A stretch of 64,000 nt of DNA from assembly GCA_025359445.1 (NCBI GenBank), contig JANYGB010000019.1:61478-125477 (forward strand), written 5' to 3'. Source of the stretch: Sphingomonadaceae bacterium. Lineage in GTDB: Bacteria > Pseudomonadota > Alphaproteobacteria > Sphingomonadales > Sphingomonadaceae. The position numbers and the translations under genes are program-made. How positions within the stretch are numbered: position 1 is the first letter of the stretch; each line of letters starts with the position of its first letter. The notes beneath the pieces are model-generated. The model was not told the DNA's origin, made no database searches, and saw nothing but the letters and a program-made list of their open reading frames with translations. Of this stretch, positions 11,171 to 53,618 are shown piece by piece.

Positions 11171-11857
11171 ATGAAATGGAACCTGGTCGCCCTGCTTGCA
11201 ACCCCCTTGGCGCTGCTCGGCTGCAAGGAAGCTGCGCCGACGCCGCAGCCGAGCGCGCGTCCGGCGGCTTTAGCAGCGCCGGCTGCGGACGAGGTGACCA
11301 TCCTCGCGCTCGGTGACAGCCTGTTCGCCGGCTACGGCCTCGCCCCCGGGCAAAGCTACCCGGCGCACCTCGAGACCGCGCTCAAGGCGCGCGGCATTCC
11401 GGCGCGAATTGTCAATGCCGGGGTCTCGGGCGATACCACCGCCGATGGCTTGGCGCGGGTCGACTTCGTACTAAACGGGATGGGCCGCAAACCCGCCATG
11501 GCGATCATCAGTCTGGGCGGCAACGACATGCTTCGCGCGGTTCCGCCAGCCGAAACGCGGCGCAACCTGGCGGCGATCCTCGTCAAGTTTAGCGCTGCGA
11601 AAGTGCCGGTGGTGCTGCTGCAACTGCTCGCCGCGCCCAATTTGGGCAAGGATTACGCGGGCGGATTCAATCCGATCTATCCACAATTGGCGAAGCAATA
11701 CGGCGCAACACTGGTACCGTTCTGGCTCGCGCCGCTGCAGGGACATCCCGAGCTAGTGCAGGGCGATCATATCCACCCGACTTTGCCCGGGATCGACGCG
11801 TTGGTGGCAGGGACGGTGGATCGGGTTGTGGGGGCGGTGCCCTCAATGCGGAGGTGA
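11171..11857 (+). CDS. arylesterase / SGNH hydrolase (TesA-like lipoprotein)
   Basis: Lipobox-like LALLGC; VTILALGDSLFAGYGL block; divergent from the YbbAP-like pair, a common neighbourhood. Confidence 0.87.
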   Translation: MKWNLVALLATPLALLGCKEAAPTPQPSARPAALAAPAADEVTILALGDSLFAGYGLAPGQSYPAHLETALKARGIPARIVNAGVSGDTTADGLARVDFVLNGMGRKPAMAIISLGGNDMLRAVPPAETRRNLAAILVKFSAAKVPVVLLQLLAAPNLGKDYAGGFNPIYPQLAKQYGATLVPFWLAPLQGHPELVQGDHIHPTLPGIDALVAGTVDRVVGAVPSMRR

Positions 11858-11871
11858 CTTCACCAAAATCC

Positions 11872-12021
11872 GTTCGTCCTGAGGAGCGGCTGAGTTCTTG
11901 GGAAGACGCGTCTCGAAGGACCTGGCGCGGCTGTGGTTCGAGACGGGCCCCTTCGACTGCCCGCAAGGCAGGCGCTCTGGACATGCTTCGCTCCGCTCAG
12001 TCCCTCCTCACCACGAACGGG
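11872..12021. repeat. intergenic palindromic repeat element
   Basis: Terminal inverted segments CCGTTCGTCCTGAGGAG ... CTCCTCACCACGAACGG (15/17 complementary) with internal inverted segments. Confidence 0.6.
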
Positions 12022-12036
12022 TGATGGGTCTTTGAC

Positions 12037-13110
12037 TTAAGAAATCCGCACTGCCCGCCCGCCGCTGACCTGCCACACCGCTGCATGGTCCTTGATCGCC
12101 TCGAACGGCGCGAGTTCGGTCCCGGTTAGCCAGACCTGCGCCGACCCTGCCGCCAGCCGCTCGAACAACGCGGCGCGGCGCAGCGGATCGAGATGCGCGG
12201 CGACTTCATCCAGCAATAGCACGCCGGGGCGATCGGGTGATAGCAACTGCGCGTGAGCCAGCGTAATCGCGATCAGCATCGCCTTCTGCTCGCCGGTCGA
12301 GCAGGCGCTGGCCTCTTGGTCCTTGCCCGCCATGGTCACTGCCAGCTCGTCGCGGTGCGGGCCCACCAAGGTGCGCTGCGCGGCACGGTCGCGGCGGCGG
12401 CCTTCGGCCAATGCCGCAGCGAGATCCGCAGCATTGAGCGGCCCGCCCGGTTGGTAAGCCAGCGCGGGCCGCGCAAAAGGTGCATCGGGCAGAGCCTCAA
12501 GCGTCTCGGATAGCCGTGCGATCAGCCGCGCGCGAGCTCGCGCCACGGCCGCGCCCGCTTCGGCAATCTGTAGCTCGATCGCGCCGAGCCATTGCGGATC
12601 GGGTTCGGCCGGCTCGCCCAACAACCGCCCGCGCTCGCGCAAAGCCGCTTCGAGTTTGGCGGCATGGCGCGCGTGGCCGGGCTCCACCGCCAGCACCAGC
12701 CGGTCAAGAAACCGCCGCCGCGCGCCCGCGCTGTCCATGAACAGGCGGTCCATCGCCGGGGTCAGCCAGCCAATGCTAAGCCATTCGCCCAGCCGCACCG
12801 CAGGCGCATCAACGCCGTTAACCTGCACCACCCGCCGTCCGGGCCGGTCGGGCCGCGTTCCGGTGCCAAGCTGGACCTCGCCCGCAAGGTCGGCGCTGAC
12901 CGCAAATCCGTCGGCCGAGCCATGCGCGGCAATCTCGGCCAGCGCGGCCCGGCGCAGTCCGCGCCCGGGGGCAAGCAACGACAAGGCCTCGAGCACGTTG
13001 GTCTTGCCCGCGCCGTTCTCGCCAACCAGCAGGTTGAACCGCGCGGTCTCGTCGATCGCGGTGTCCAGATGGTTGCGAAACTGGGTCAGCCTGATGCGGT
13101 CGAGCGCCAT
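12037..13110 (-). CDS. recF: DNA replication/repair protein RecF
   Basis: MALDRIRLTQFRNHLDTAIDETARFNLLVGENGAGKTNVLEALSLLAPGRGLRRA. Confidence 0.92.
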   Translation of the reverse strand: MALDRIRLTQFRNHLDTAIDETARFNLLVGENGAGKTNVLEALSLLAPGRGLRRAALAEIAAHGSADGFAVSADLAGEVQLGTGTRPDRPGRRVVQVNGVDAPAVRLGEWLSIGWLTPAMDRLFMDSAGARRRFLDRLVLAVEPGHARHAAKLEAALRERGRLLGEPAEPDPQWLGAIELQIAEAGAAVARARARLIARLSETLEALPDAPFARPALAYQPGGPLNAADLAAALAEGRRRDRAAQRTLVGPHRDELAVTMAGKDQEASACSTGEQKAMLIAITLAHAQLLSPDRPGVLLLDEVAAHLDPLRRAALFERLAAGSAQVWLTGTELAPFEAIKDHAAVWQVSGGRAVRIS

Positions 13111-26830: not shown

Positions 26831-26865
26831 GACGGGGATGTAGCCTCAGGCTTCAAGTGTGCAAG

Positions 26866-27018
26866 CCCCCTCTCCAAGCTTCGCTAGGCGCAAGCGCCAA
26901 GCTGCGCTTTCCTCTCCCGCAAGGGGAGAGGAGCACAGGCGGCGCGATTCCTCCCCCCCAGCGGGGGAGGATACGCAGGCTTGAGAGCGGAGCGAACTAG
27001 CCGAACTTGGAGAGGGGG
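26866..27018. repeat. nested palindromic (BIME-like) intergenic element
   Basis: Outer arms CCCCCTCTCCAAG ... CTTGGAGAGGGGG (13 bp perfect) enclosing GGCG-CAAG-CGCC, CCTCTCCC-gcaag-GGGAGAGG and CCTCCCCC...GGGGGAGG hairpins. Confidence 0.75.
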
Positions 27019-27024
27019 ATGGCT

Positions 27025-40595: not shown

Positions 40596-41314
40596 GCGAT
40601 ACCATCATTCAGGCTGCGGCGCTGATCTTGCCGTTGATCTTCGCAATCGTATTTCACGAAGTTGCACACGGCCTGATGGCGCGGCAGCTCGGCGATCCGA
40701 CCGCAGCGGAACAGGGGCGGCTCAGCCTCAACCCGATCAAGCACGTCGATCCGGTCGGTACGGTGTTCCTGCCAGGATTGCTCGCGCTGTTCCACTTGCC
40801 GGTGTTCGGCTGGGCCAAGCCGGTGCCGGTGGTGGCCTCACGCCTGCGCCATCCGCGCCGCGACATGATGCTGGTCGGAGCGGCCGGACCGGGATCGAAC
40901 CTGATCATGGCGGCGATTGCTGCGGTGGTGTTTGGGATGATGCTCCCATCCGGCTTACCGCAAGGGCTCAGACTAGACGAGCTGCTAACGTCCATACAAA
41001 CCCAGTCATTCTTTGTATTTTTCTTCGCGCTGACCGTTTTCCTGTTTATTCAGATCAACGTCTATCTCGCGCTGTTCAACCTCCTGCCGATCCCGCCGTT
41101 CGATGGTTCGCACATTGTCGAGGGCTTGCTGCCCGAGCGGATGGCGCAAAGCTATGCCAAGTTCCGCGCTGTCGGCATGCTGATCCCAATCTTCCTGATC
41201 ATTGTGCTGCCCTACCTGATCCCCGGGTTCAGCGTGACGAAGTACCTGGTCGCCCCGGTCGAATGGGTGATCGGCTGGTACGCCAAGCTCGCGGCGCTTG
41301 TCGCCGGGGTTTAG
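40592..41314 (+). CDS. site-2 protease family (M50) membrane metalloprotease
   Basis: IFAIVFHEVAHGLMARQLGD (HExxH); NLLPIPPFDGSHIV. Confidence 0.9.
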   Translation: MSDTIIQAAALILPLIFAIVFHEVAHGLMARQLGDPTAAEQGRLSLNPIKHVDPVGTVFLPGLLALFHLPVFGWAKPVPVVASRLRHPRRDMMLVGAAGPGSNLIMAAIAAVVFGMMLPSGLPQGLRLDELLTSIQTQSFFVFFFALTVFLFIQINVYLALFNLLPIPPFDGSHIVEGLLPERMAQSYAKFRAVGMLIPIFLIIVLPYLIPGFSVTKYLVAPVEWVIGWYAKLAALVAGV

Positions 41315-41318
41315 CTTT

Positions 41319-42272
41319 ATGCCGCACGGCTGGATCATCTTAGACAAGCCGCTAGGGCTTGGCAGCACGCAGGCGGTGGCGGCGGTCAAGCGCAACTTGC
41401 GCGAGGCGGGCCTCGGCAAGGTCAAGGTCGGGCACGGCGGCACGCTCGATCCACTTGCCACGGGTGTGCTGCCGATTGCGCTGGGCGAGGCAACCAAACT
41501 TGCGGGGCGGATGCTCGATGCGAGCAAGGTCTATGAATTCACCGTGGCGTTCGGTGCCGAGACTGACACTCTCGACTTGGAGGGCAACTTGATTGCCCAG
41601 AGTGACGTAAGGCCGACGGTGGCGCAAGTTGAGGCGGTGTTGCCGCGTTTTACCGGTCCGATCGAACAAGTGCCGCCGGCCTATTCCGCGCTCAAGGTGG
41701 GCGGTGAGCGGGCTTATGACTTGGCGCGGGCAGGAGAGGAGGTGGAGCTTAAACCGCGCAGTGTCACTGTCCACCAACTAACCCCCGTTCGTGTCGAGCG
41801 TAGTCGAGAAGCCTGCGCAGGTGTCTCGACTACGCTCGACACGAACGGATGGTTGGATGAATTATCATTTGAAGTGCACGTCTCCAAAGGCACCTATATC
41901 CGCAGCCTTGCGCGCGATATCGCGCTGGCGCTCGGCACGCGCGGCCACGTTATCATGCTGCGCCGCTTGTCTGCCGGACCGTTCACCGAAAATCAGGCGA
42001 TTTCGCTGGACAAATTGAACGCGGTGGGTAAGGGCGCGCCACTTGAGAACGTACTCTTGCCGCTGGAGGCAGGGCTGGTCGACATCCCGGCTCTTGACCT
42101 CGGTCCGGAACAGGCAAGCATGGTCCGACAGGGCCGGGTTCTATCCGGACTGCCCCAACACGATGGGCTATTCTGGGCGCGAAGCGGGAGCAATCCCGTC
42201 GCACTCGTGGAGCTTTCGGGCGGAGACGCCCGGGTCGTGCGGGGGTTCAACCTTCCCGATGTCGCGGAGTAA
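41319..42272 (+). CDS. truB: tRNA pseudouridine(55) synthase TruB, carrying an in-frame palindromic repeat insertion
   Basis: [24 protein letters not shown]...[24 protein letters not shown]...[15 protein letters not shown]. Confidence 0.95.
41785..41848. repeat. 64-bp palindromic repeat element inside truB
   Basis: CCGTTCGTGTCGAGCGTAGTCGAGA / TCTCGACTACGCTCGACACGAACGG perfect 25-bp inverted arms around AG-CCTGCGCAGG-TG. Confidence 0.95.
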
Positions 42273-42277
42273 ATAAC

Positions 42278-42547
42278 ATGTCGGTATCTGCCGAAAAGAA
42301 AGCCGAAATCATCGCGGACAACGGCCGCGGTAAGGGTGATACGGGTTCGCCCGAAGTCCAGGTCGCGATCCTGACCAGCCGCATCAACACGCTGCAGGGT
42401 CACTTCAAGGATCACCACAAAGACAACCACTCGCGCCGGGGCCTGCTGACCATGGTCAACAAGCGTCGCAGCCTGCTTGATTATCTCAAGCGCAAGGACG
42501 TTGCCCGGTATAATTCGCTGATCCAGAAGCTGGGCCTGCGCAAGTAA
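42278..42547 (+). CDS. rpsO: 30S ribosomal protein S15
   Basis: [55 protein letters not shown]. Confidence 0.97.
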
Positions 42548-42792: not shown

Positions 42793-45120
42793 ATGTTCGA
42801 CGTTAAAACTGTATCGATGGAATGGGGCGGTAAGACCCTCACTCTGGAAACCGGCCGCATTGCCCGCCAGGCTGATGGCGCGGTGCTGGCCACTTATGGC
42901 GAAACCGTGGTGCTGTGCGCCGTGACCGCCGCCAAGTCGGTCAAGGAAGGGCAGGACTTCTTCCCGCTCACCGTCCACTATCAGGAAAAGTTCTTCGCTG
43001 CCGGGCGCATCCCGGGCGGCTTCTTCAAGCGTGAACGCGGCGCGACCGAAAAGGAAACGCTGGTATCGCGGCTGATCGATCGCCCGGTGCGGCCGCTGTT
43101 CCCCGAAGGCTTCTACAACGAAATCAACGTCATCGCCCATGTGCTGAGCTATGACGGTGAAGTCGAACCCGACGTGCTGGCGATGATCGCTGCTTCGGCT
43201 GCGCTGACTATCTCTGGCGTGCCGTTCATGGGCCCGATCGGCGCTGCCCGCGTCGGTTATGTCGACGGCGAATACACCCTTAACCCGCGTCAGGACGAAG
43301 CTGCCAATGGCCAGCTCGACCTGATCGTCGCCGCCACCGGCAATGCCGTGATGATGGTTGAATCGGAAGCCAAGGAGCTTTCGGAAGAAATCATGCTCGG
43401 CGCGGTGATCTTTGCACACGACGAGATCAAGAAGGTCGTCAATCTGATCATCGATCTGGCTGAAAAGGCTGCCAAGGATCCTTGGGATGTCGCCGTATCG
43501 GACAATACGGCAATGAAGGACGAGCTCAAGAAGCTGGTCGGCAAGGACATTGCTGCGGCTTACAAGCTGACCGACAAGTCGGAACGCTCCAATGCGCTCA
43601 ACCTCGCCCGCGCCGCCGGCAAGGCCGCCTTCGCGGGCAAAGATGGCCAGACCCAGATGGCCGCCGGCAAGGTGGTCAAGAAGCTCGAAGCCGAAATCGT
43701 GCGCGGGGCCATCCTCAAGGACGGCCAGCGGATCGACGGGCGCAAGACCGATCAGGTCCGTCCGATCGAGGCAATTGTCGGCTTCCTGCCGCGCACCCAC
43801 GGTTCATCGTTGTTCACCCGCGGTGAAACGCAGGCGATCTGCACCACCACGCTGGGCACGCGTGAATCTGAGCAGATGATCGACGGGCTCGAAGGCCTGA
43901 CGTACTCGAACTTCATGCTGCATTATAACTTCCCGCCCTATTCGGTTGGCGAAGTTGGCCGCTTCGGCGCTCCCTCGCGCCGCGACACCGGTCACGGCAA
44001 GCTCGCCTGGCGCGCGCTGCGCGCAGTTCTGCCGACCAAGGAAGACTTCCCTTACACGATCCGCGTGGTCTCGGACATTACCGAGTCCAACGGCTCCAGC
44101 TCGATGGCCACCGTCTGCGGCGGTTCACTGTCGATGATGGACGCCGGCGTGCCGATCACGCGCCCGGTTTCGGGTATCGCGATGGGGCTGATCCTCGAAG
44201 GCGACAAGTTCTCGGTGCTGTCCGACATTCTGGGCGATGAAGATCACCTCGGCGATATGGACTTCAAGGTGGCCGGGACCAGCGAAGGCATCACCACGAT
44301 GCAGATGGACATCAAGATCGCGGGCATCACGCGCGAGATCTTCGAAGCCGCGCTGCATCAGGCCAAGGCCGGCCGCGCCCACATCCTGGGTGAAATGACC
44401 AAGGCGCTGGGTTCGGCCCGCACCGAGCTGTCGGACTATGCGCCGCGCATCGAAAGCCTGCAGATCGACAAGTCGAAGATCCGTGAAGTGATCGGTACCG
44501 GCGGCAAGGTAATCCGCGAGATCGTCGCCGAAACCGGCGCCAAGGTCGACATTGACGATGAAGGCCTGATCAAGATCAGCTCGTCCGATCCCGCGCAGAT
44601 CGAGGCCGCCAAGGCCTGGATCCTCGGCATTGTGGAAGAGGCTGAAGTCGGCAAGGTCTACGACGGCAAGGTTGTCACAATCGTCGATTTCGGCGCATTC
44701 GTAAACTTCATGGGCGGCAAGGACGGCCTGGTCCACGTTTCGGAAATGCGCAACGAGCGCGTCGAGAAGCCAACCGACGTCGTTTCGGAAGGTCTGGCGG
44801 TCAAGGTCAAGGTCCTCGAAATCGATCAGCGTGGCAAGGTCCGCTTGTCGATGCGGGTGGTCGATCAGGAAACCGGTGCTGAGCTCGAAGATACCCGTCC
44901 GGCGCGCGAACCGCGTGCTGGCGGCGGCGACCGTCCCGGCGGTGATCGCGGCGATCGCCGTGGTCCGCGTTCAGGCGGCGGCGGTGATCGCGGCCCGCGC
45001 CGTGATGGCGGCGGTGATCGTGGTCCGCGCTCAGGCGGCGGTGATCGCGGTCCGCGTCCTGACCGTGACGAAGGCCCCGCGCCCGATCACGTTCCGGCGT
45101 TCCTCAAGAACGACGATTGA
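42793..45120 (+). CDS. pnp: polyribonucleotide nucleotidyltransferase
   Basis: [42 protein letters not shown] and S1 domains; Gly/Arg/Asp-rich tail. Confidence 0.97.
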
Positions 45121-53151: not shown

Positions 53152-53618
53152 GGACCGGCCTTAGACCGCTGCGGCTCATTCCGGCAATGGGTGCCGTCAC
53201 GCGATCCGAAATCTGGTTCCCTCAACGTCTGAACGAACAATGAGATCTTTAGTTGATGCCGCAATCGGGTCGTAACCGGACTGTCCGGTTTCGGACTGGA
53301 AACCCTGAAAGCGGACATGGCCGTGCGTTGCCTGGATCGTCCGCTTTCCAAGATTCAATCCATAAGTTGCCGTTCCGGACTGTCCGACATTCCAGCCGTT
53401 CCAATTGCGATTTGCTTTGGCAGGGGAACGTCCCGTTTCAGGCAAGACTCGTTTGCTACCAGATGGCGCGGTTGGAGCGCCAGGCGCCAACCAGAGAAAC
53501 AACTTTCCTACAGCCCCCCGCGTGACATAGCTGACTTGCCTCCCCCACCCGCGGAGGCAACCACAGTGTCCAGAAAATTCACCCAAACTCCTTCGACAGG
53601 CTCAGCACGGACGGTTCG

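Follow-up and report, generated by a model that had tools for sequence, protein, structure and literature searches.

Unrelated palindromic repeats recur in frame at one turn of TruB across Sphingomonadaceae

The truB locus and its palindromic insert

The window, which is the whole stretch of 64,000 nucleotides that was analysed, carries the gene for the tRNA pseudouridine-55 synthase TruB together with rpsO and pnp (Table 1), and tblastn places rpsO next to truB in relatives too. The truB reading frame is open from 41298 to 42272, with a likely ATG start at 41319, and Pfam matches to TruB_N and TruB_C_2 account for the protein to either side of a palindromic insert, which bears out the initial annotation, where a palindrome had been placed in frame inside an otherwise canonical truB. 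Counted from this ATG, the insert codes for residues about 156-177. The catalytic Asp44 motif and other invariant positions are kept in an alignment with PDB structures.

Table 1. Features of the truB region and related sequences in the window
Feature	Coordinates	Strand	Basis or remark
truB, tRNA pseudouridine-55 synthase, 317 aa, with in-frame insert	41319..42272	+	ORF, Pfam, PDB alignment, AF2
beta-strand codons before the turn, model residues 147-156	41757..41786	+	DSSP on AF2 model
64-bp palindromic repeat element within truB	41785..41848	.	perfect inverted repeat, fold, diverged copies
left 25-bp arm, CCGTTCGTGTCGAGCGTAGTCGAGA	41785..41809	+	
central 14 nt, AGCCTGCGCAGGTG, containing the CCTGCGCAGG palindrome	41810..41823	+	
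right 25-bp arm	41824..41848	+	exact reverse complement of left arm
beta-strand codons following the turn (model residues 181-188), running into VSKGTYIRS	41859..41882	+	DSSP, AF2 model
rpsO (ribosomal protein S15), just 3' of truB	42278..42547	+	
pnp (polynucleotide phosphorylase)	42793..45120	+	
REP-like composite with the terminal CCGTTCG motif in common, in the gap between convergent genes	11870..12020	.	not a full truB-element copy
partial REP-like sequence with shared motif CCGTCCGTGCTGAGC	53587..53614	-	

The AF2 model of TruB has a mean pLDDT of 83.7, and its best match among solved structures is E. coli TruB with RNA (1k8w, TM 0.82). Only residues 160-171, residues 173-176 and the last four residues fall below a pLDDT of 50, and the first two of these stretches sit between the strands 147-156 and 181-188. 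Mapped onto this model, the insert falls in the turn between two antiparallel strands, and its approximately 22 extra residues are probably disordered. Judging from the open frame, the palindrome would be translated as part of TruB, and the enzyme carrying it would be expected to keep its activity.

The perfect 25-bp inverted repeat that had been described was confirmed around AGCCTGCGCAGGTG, and an inverted-repeat search extends it to arms of 32 nt that are 94% complementary, the longest inverted repeat listed for the window. Two more imperfect inverted repeats lie at 26861-27023 and 61056-61172, with arms of 27 and 26 nt that are 81% complementary. As RNA, the truB palindrome has a folding energy of -65 kcal/mol; dinucleotide shuffles give -27.3 +/- 3.1, and none of 200 folds as well. 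The proposed check of mRNA structure puts the palindrome 12 SD below the shuffles (z = -12). A known structured RNA was rejected as an explanation, since an Rfam search of the window returned only tRNAs.

Inspected by eye, the element ends in CCGTTCG...CGAACGG, and the terminal inverted repeats that are a criterion for MITEs are present. In a 2013 survey (Di Nocera et al., PMC3733652), CGTC REPs are defined by a terminal CGTC (or TGTC/CCTC), an AT-starting stem of 8-9 bp, a loop of 4-5 nt and a CCA tail; by eye, the truB palindrome does not conform to this combination of tag, stem, loop and tail. It likewise has no terminal GTAG tag by eye, as GTAG occurs only inside the arm and is replaced there by GAAG or GAAA in other full-length copies of the element, which is referred to below as F1.

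Copies of the element in the host genome

The host genome (2.96 Mb in 71 contigs, 99.7% complete) is placed in or near Novosphingobium by its relatives. The genome-wide repeat search called for by the initial annotation found diverged full-length F1 copies elsewhere in it (for example C54:16301-16364, C2:14357-14416 and C30:33855-33915), which are 78-81% identical and have their ends and arms in common with the truB copy. A 13-base core, searched with at most one mismatch, occurs 25 times in the host genome as compared to 5 times for a reversed control. Among the F1 copies inspected, none lies inside a recognisable gene except the truB copy. Similar intergenic sequences had also been pointed out within the window itself, at 11872 and 53585; these share only the terminal motif and are not full copies. 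The first is a composite in the gap between the end of one gene at 11857 and the end of recF at 12037, recF being on the opposite strand.

A search of the host genome for PF01797 (Y1 transposase, RAYT) gave no match, although 5 of 14 control genomes were positive, and a resident RAYT was therefore rejected as the mobiliser.

In the four-genome clade that contains the window, which is fully supported (100) in a smaller first tree from a quick search without bootstrap, three states are found at the TruB turn: the window carries F1, two relatives (L091 and L092) carry an insert of another family, F5, and one (L146) is empty. L091 is 96% identical to the window over 621 columns and is closer to it than L146, yet it has a different insert. 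As asked of an ortholog alignment, the insert is absent from the close relative L146 and from many others, and a non-palindromic segment of similar length is not a general feature of the relatives, with one large subgroup having a long non-palindromic loop. Absence from L146 and the presence of diverged copies elsewhere identify the truB palindrome as a dispersed repeat. The loop outside the element measures 41 nt in the window as compared to 51 nt in L146, hence the difference is not a simple lengthening. No target-site duplication was seen when occupied and empty relatives were aligned, and the loops are too diverged to show one.

Insert families at the TruB turn

From relatives, the part of TruB that lies between the VTxH strand and VSKGTYIR was extracted, and the insert families were named by their peptides. 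Many relatives have long in-frame inserts of differing kinds in this same beta-hairpin turn, and at least six unrelated palindromic families were found there: F1 (VRVERSRD...STSLDTNG and kin), CGTC-type REPs (HAELVSAS...WTLKQVQGD and HPGEGRDP...LRRGD), F4 (PFRGG...SPEGEG), F5 (GRWRAEG...PPPPEGE), F6 (ETGRGT...GPPPRAGE) and F7 (SPLAGED...PLPQGER). The HAELVSAS..WTLKQVQGD inserts of relatives begin with CGTCATGCTGAA. One relative (L096) has a decayed F1-like insert in which the palindrome is lost and the frame is kept.

For three further truB inserts, a search of the genome that carries each showed it to be a dispersed repeat: there were 5 matches in G089, 22 in G125 and 194 in G146, and the places are fewer than the matches because palindromes match in both orientations. 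The 194 matches are those of F5 in G146 (L255-L280), a single-contig genome of 3.4 Mb, and several of them lie in tandem-like clusters.

A further type, F8 (STFATTxGRPDPYDPxAPLELAD), is inherited and non-palindromic. Its protein sequence is conserved across many genera of the family (L173, L174, L193, L196, L202, L204, L210 and others), and it is perhaps an old domesticated insert. In two genomes (L177 and L207), a CGTC-like REP (HPREGGDPE...LDSRLR) stands beside the inherited F8, as a further insertion into a turn that F8 had already extended.

Frequency and independence of the inserts

Of the 150 family genomes in which TruB was found, about 78 show an alignment of the protein that is split at residues 155-160, and about half of the family genomes have no long insert at the turn. 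When 50 of the genomes with a split TruB were read at the turn, about half had F8 and about half had repeats. A tree of 147 genomes was built from TruB without the loop, RpsO and the start of Pnp. With plain F8 set aside, the 52 remaining inserts require at least 29 changes of occupancy on this tree, a number that comes from quick tree searches without bootstrap and that horizontal exchange of truB alleles could inflate as a count of gains. F6 shows 12 changes for 12 rows and the CGTC REPs show 11 changes for 15 rows, and F8 is clustered on the tree, as inheritance predicts. The insert is not an isolated event: insertions have recurred at the same TruB turn in many members of the family.

In the same kind of search, a split RecF was found in 1 of 81 family genomes, and one more case coincides with a contig break. 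Among other Alphaproteobacteria, two TruB matches were obtained in 3 of about 228 genomes that have TruB, and two of these three also have a full-length unsplit match. In the 20-kb neighbourhoods of 60 genomes, no insert of at least 20 residues was found in the genes at the NusA, RimP and YlxR positions, and IF2 and Pnp show only scattered length variation in some genomes; 50 of these 60 genomes had been chosen for a split TruB, the truB rate itself being taken from the unselected sample of 150. This neighbour control includes antisense ORFs; the reading was confined to genes on the same strand as truB, which were named by their position and size. Elsewhere in G125, inspection by eye found an in-frame repeat in a linker of methylmalonyl-CoA mutase, with more REP-type peptides beside it (L247, C3:80927-80973), and another in an apparent linker of an Smr-domain-like protein (L253, C2:597380-597426).

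Frame, position and fold of the loops

The distinct long loops that were analysed have lengths divisible by three and contain no stops, and each alternative frame would hit a stop in about 70% of them, a result that is partly built in, as only loops with both TruB halves recognised were counted and disrupted copies could drop out. The CGTC-type inserts provide stronger evidence: all 15 are read in a single phase, and in 11 of these the frame used is the only open one. Across families, the inserts start mostly 4-15 nt after VTxH and lie about 28-32 nt before VSKG, and 11 of the 15 CGTC-type inserts start 12 nt after the VTxH codon. The regular expression used for the boundaries misplaced several F1, F4 and F6 ends, and reliance was therefore placed mainly on the 5' offsets and on the F1 and CGTC phases.

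The 58 long inserts other than F8 have a median RNA fold z of -6.7, and 83% of them fall below -3, while the median is -0.28 for 90 short loops and the F8 loops lie at about -0.3. A pre-existing hairpin as the target of insertion was rejected, because RNA structure at the empty sites is weaker than in other windows of truB.

Possible origins of the recurrence

We consider it fairly probable that dispersed palindromic repeats insert repeatedly and that in-frame, stop-free copies survive in the permissive turn of an active TruB. A small REP- or MITE-like repeat without genes of its own would enter the turn between two antiparallel strands without shifting the frame, and there it would be transcribed and translated as about 22 extra residues while TruB stayed active. 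Unrelated palindromic families would land independently in this turn across Sphingomonadaceae and would then pass a survival filter, in which length and phase have to keep the frame and the repeat has to read without a stop. The insert would be tolerated because only an exposed turn gets longer, and we infer that such permissiveness at the protein level is the main reason for reuse of the site.

Permissiveness alone does not obviously account for the frequency seen at truB, since other proteins also have exposed turns. A positive cause rather than mere tolerance, be it targeted insertion or selection acting on the hairpin or the peptide, might make the turn a family-wide landing pad, and we regard this as possible, if on balance doubtful. 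If it were true, truB would keep a natural record of how repeats have moved in Sphingomonadaceae.

The near-constant position across families is what would be expected if a short turn were the one place where inserts are tolerated, and it is also compatible with an insertion preference, in which the mobilising machinery would recognise a stretch of truB and the recurrence would reflect targeting rather than survival. Such targeting would explain the tight clustering of the offsets, including the shared start of most CGTC-type inserts, and why no such recurrence is seen in RecF or most neighbours. However, start offsets and phases differ between families, nothing unusual is seen in the structure of the empty site, inheritance may account for some of the shared offsets, and the turn comprises only about seven residues, so that a protein filter yields the same clustering. 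We judge a site preference to be unlikely.

It is more doubtful still that the hairpin is a selected RNA element in the truB-rpsO-pnp message, kept for mRNA processing, mRNA stability or TruB synthesis with the peptide as a by-product. Most non-F8 inserts fold far better than shuffles, truB lies directly upstream of rpsO and pnp, and unrelated palindromes at one place could represent convergence on a hairpin. Newly inserted palindromes would fold well even in the absence of selection, however, and F8 loops of similar length lack such structure. Furthermore, the L096 insert is no longer palindromic, a long insert is missing in about half of the family, and empty sites are less structured than the remainder of the gene.

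Removal of the insert at the RNA level or ribosome bypassing, leaving the protein unchanged, could be imagined for so stable a hairpin within a coding sequence, but it is very improbable, as the in-frame and stop-free state of the insert here and of essentially every long loop examined would be needless if it were skipped. An assembly artefact or chimera is hardly credible: the host genome is a 71-contig draft and the contigs of a few draft relatives end at the TruB turn (G019, G023, G031 and G057; L077, L080, L082, L083, L085, L086 and L089), which is expected if the insert is a repeat, but the window copy lies well inside its contig and inserts of the same kind occur inside single-contig genomes such as G146, for which reason assembly error was rejected as a general cause.

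Relation to known repeat systems

Translated palindromes have so far been treated as a curiosity, mainly of Rickettsia. That at least six unrelated repeat families have entered one short run of codons in a housekeeping gene, and have done so in many lineages, amounts to a replicated natural experiment, which can help to separate targeting from survival, to date repeat activity and to find the mobiliser of tag-less and CGTC repeats. The inserts also show how selfish DNA can extend a protein loop, and many long odd TruB loops in Sphingomonadaceae are repeat DNA and not gene-calling errors. In text searches of freely accessible main texts, no paper described a single site as the target of many unrelated families, and the family-wide recurrence of unrelated palindromic families at a single site appears to be new within the searchable papers.

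REPs and REPINs with RAYT are likewise short, palindromic, dispersed, mostly intergenic and devoid of genes, but the truB element differs from them in that it has no terminal GTAG tag and its host genome has no PF01797 match. MITEs are also short non-coding elements with inverted repeats; for the truB element, no target-site duplication was seen against empty relatives, whose loops are too diverged to show one, and the PF01797 search identified no parent transposase.

The closest precedent is the 2013 survey, which reports truB genes interrupted by REPs in 'E. lithoralis', S. alaskensis and S. maltophilia, the first two being sphingomonads (PMC3733652). These are likewise palindromic repeats in the truB coding sequence, but the element of the window differs from them in having no CGTC tag. 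According to the same survey, CGTC REPs have no known transposase, and RPE-1 occurs in truB of R. conorii (PMC3733652). The main text of the survey makes no mention of one turn being hit by many unrelated families.

RPEs are about 150 bp long and spread over many genes, and a 2024 review considered a similar process conceivable in other prokaryotes (PMC10969869). The initial annotation had proposed an RPE-analogous case in another lineage. The analogy itself holds, as the insert is absent in L146, recurs in the genome and is apparently read through with the TruB fold and catalytic motif kept, but the 2013 survey shows that it is not the first outside Rickettsia (PMC3733652). Like RPEs, to which it is likened by description and not by sequence, the truB element is a palindrome that is open in frame within a gene, absent from the orthologues of relatives and repeated in the genome. 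Occurrence in several genes of one genome, which is characteristic of RPEs, was not found for F1, whose only genic copy among those inspected is in truB. In the other lineage RPEs are distributed over many genes, whereas in Sphingomonadaceae many families are found at one site of one gene.
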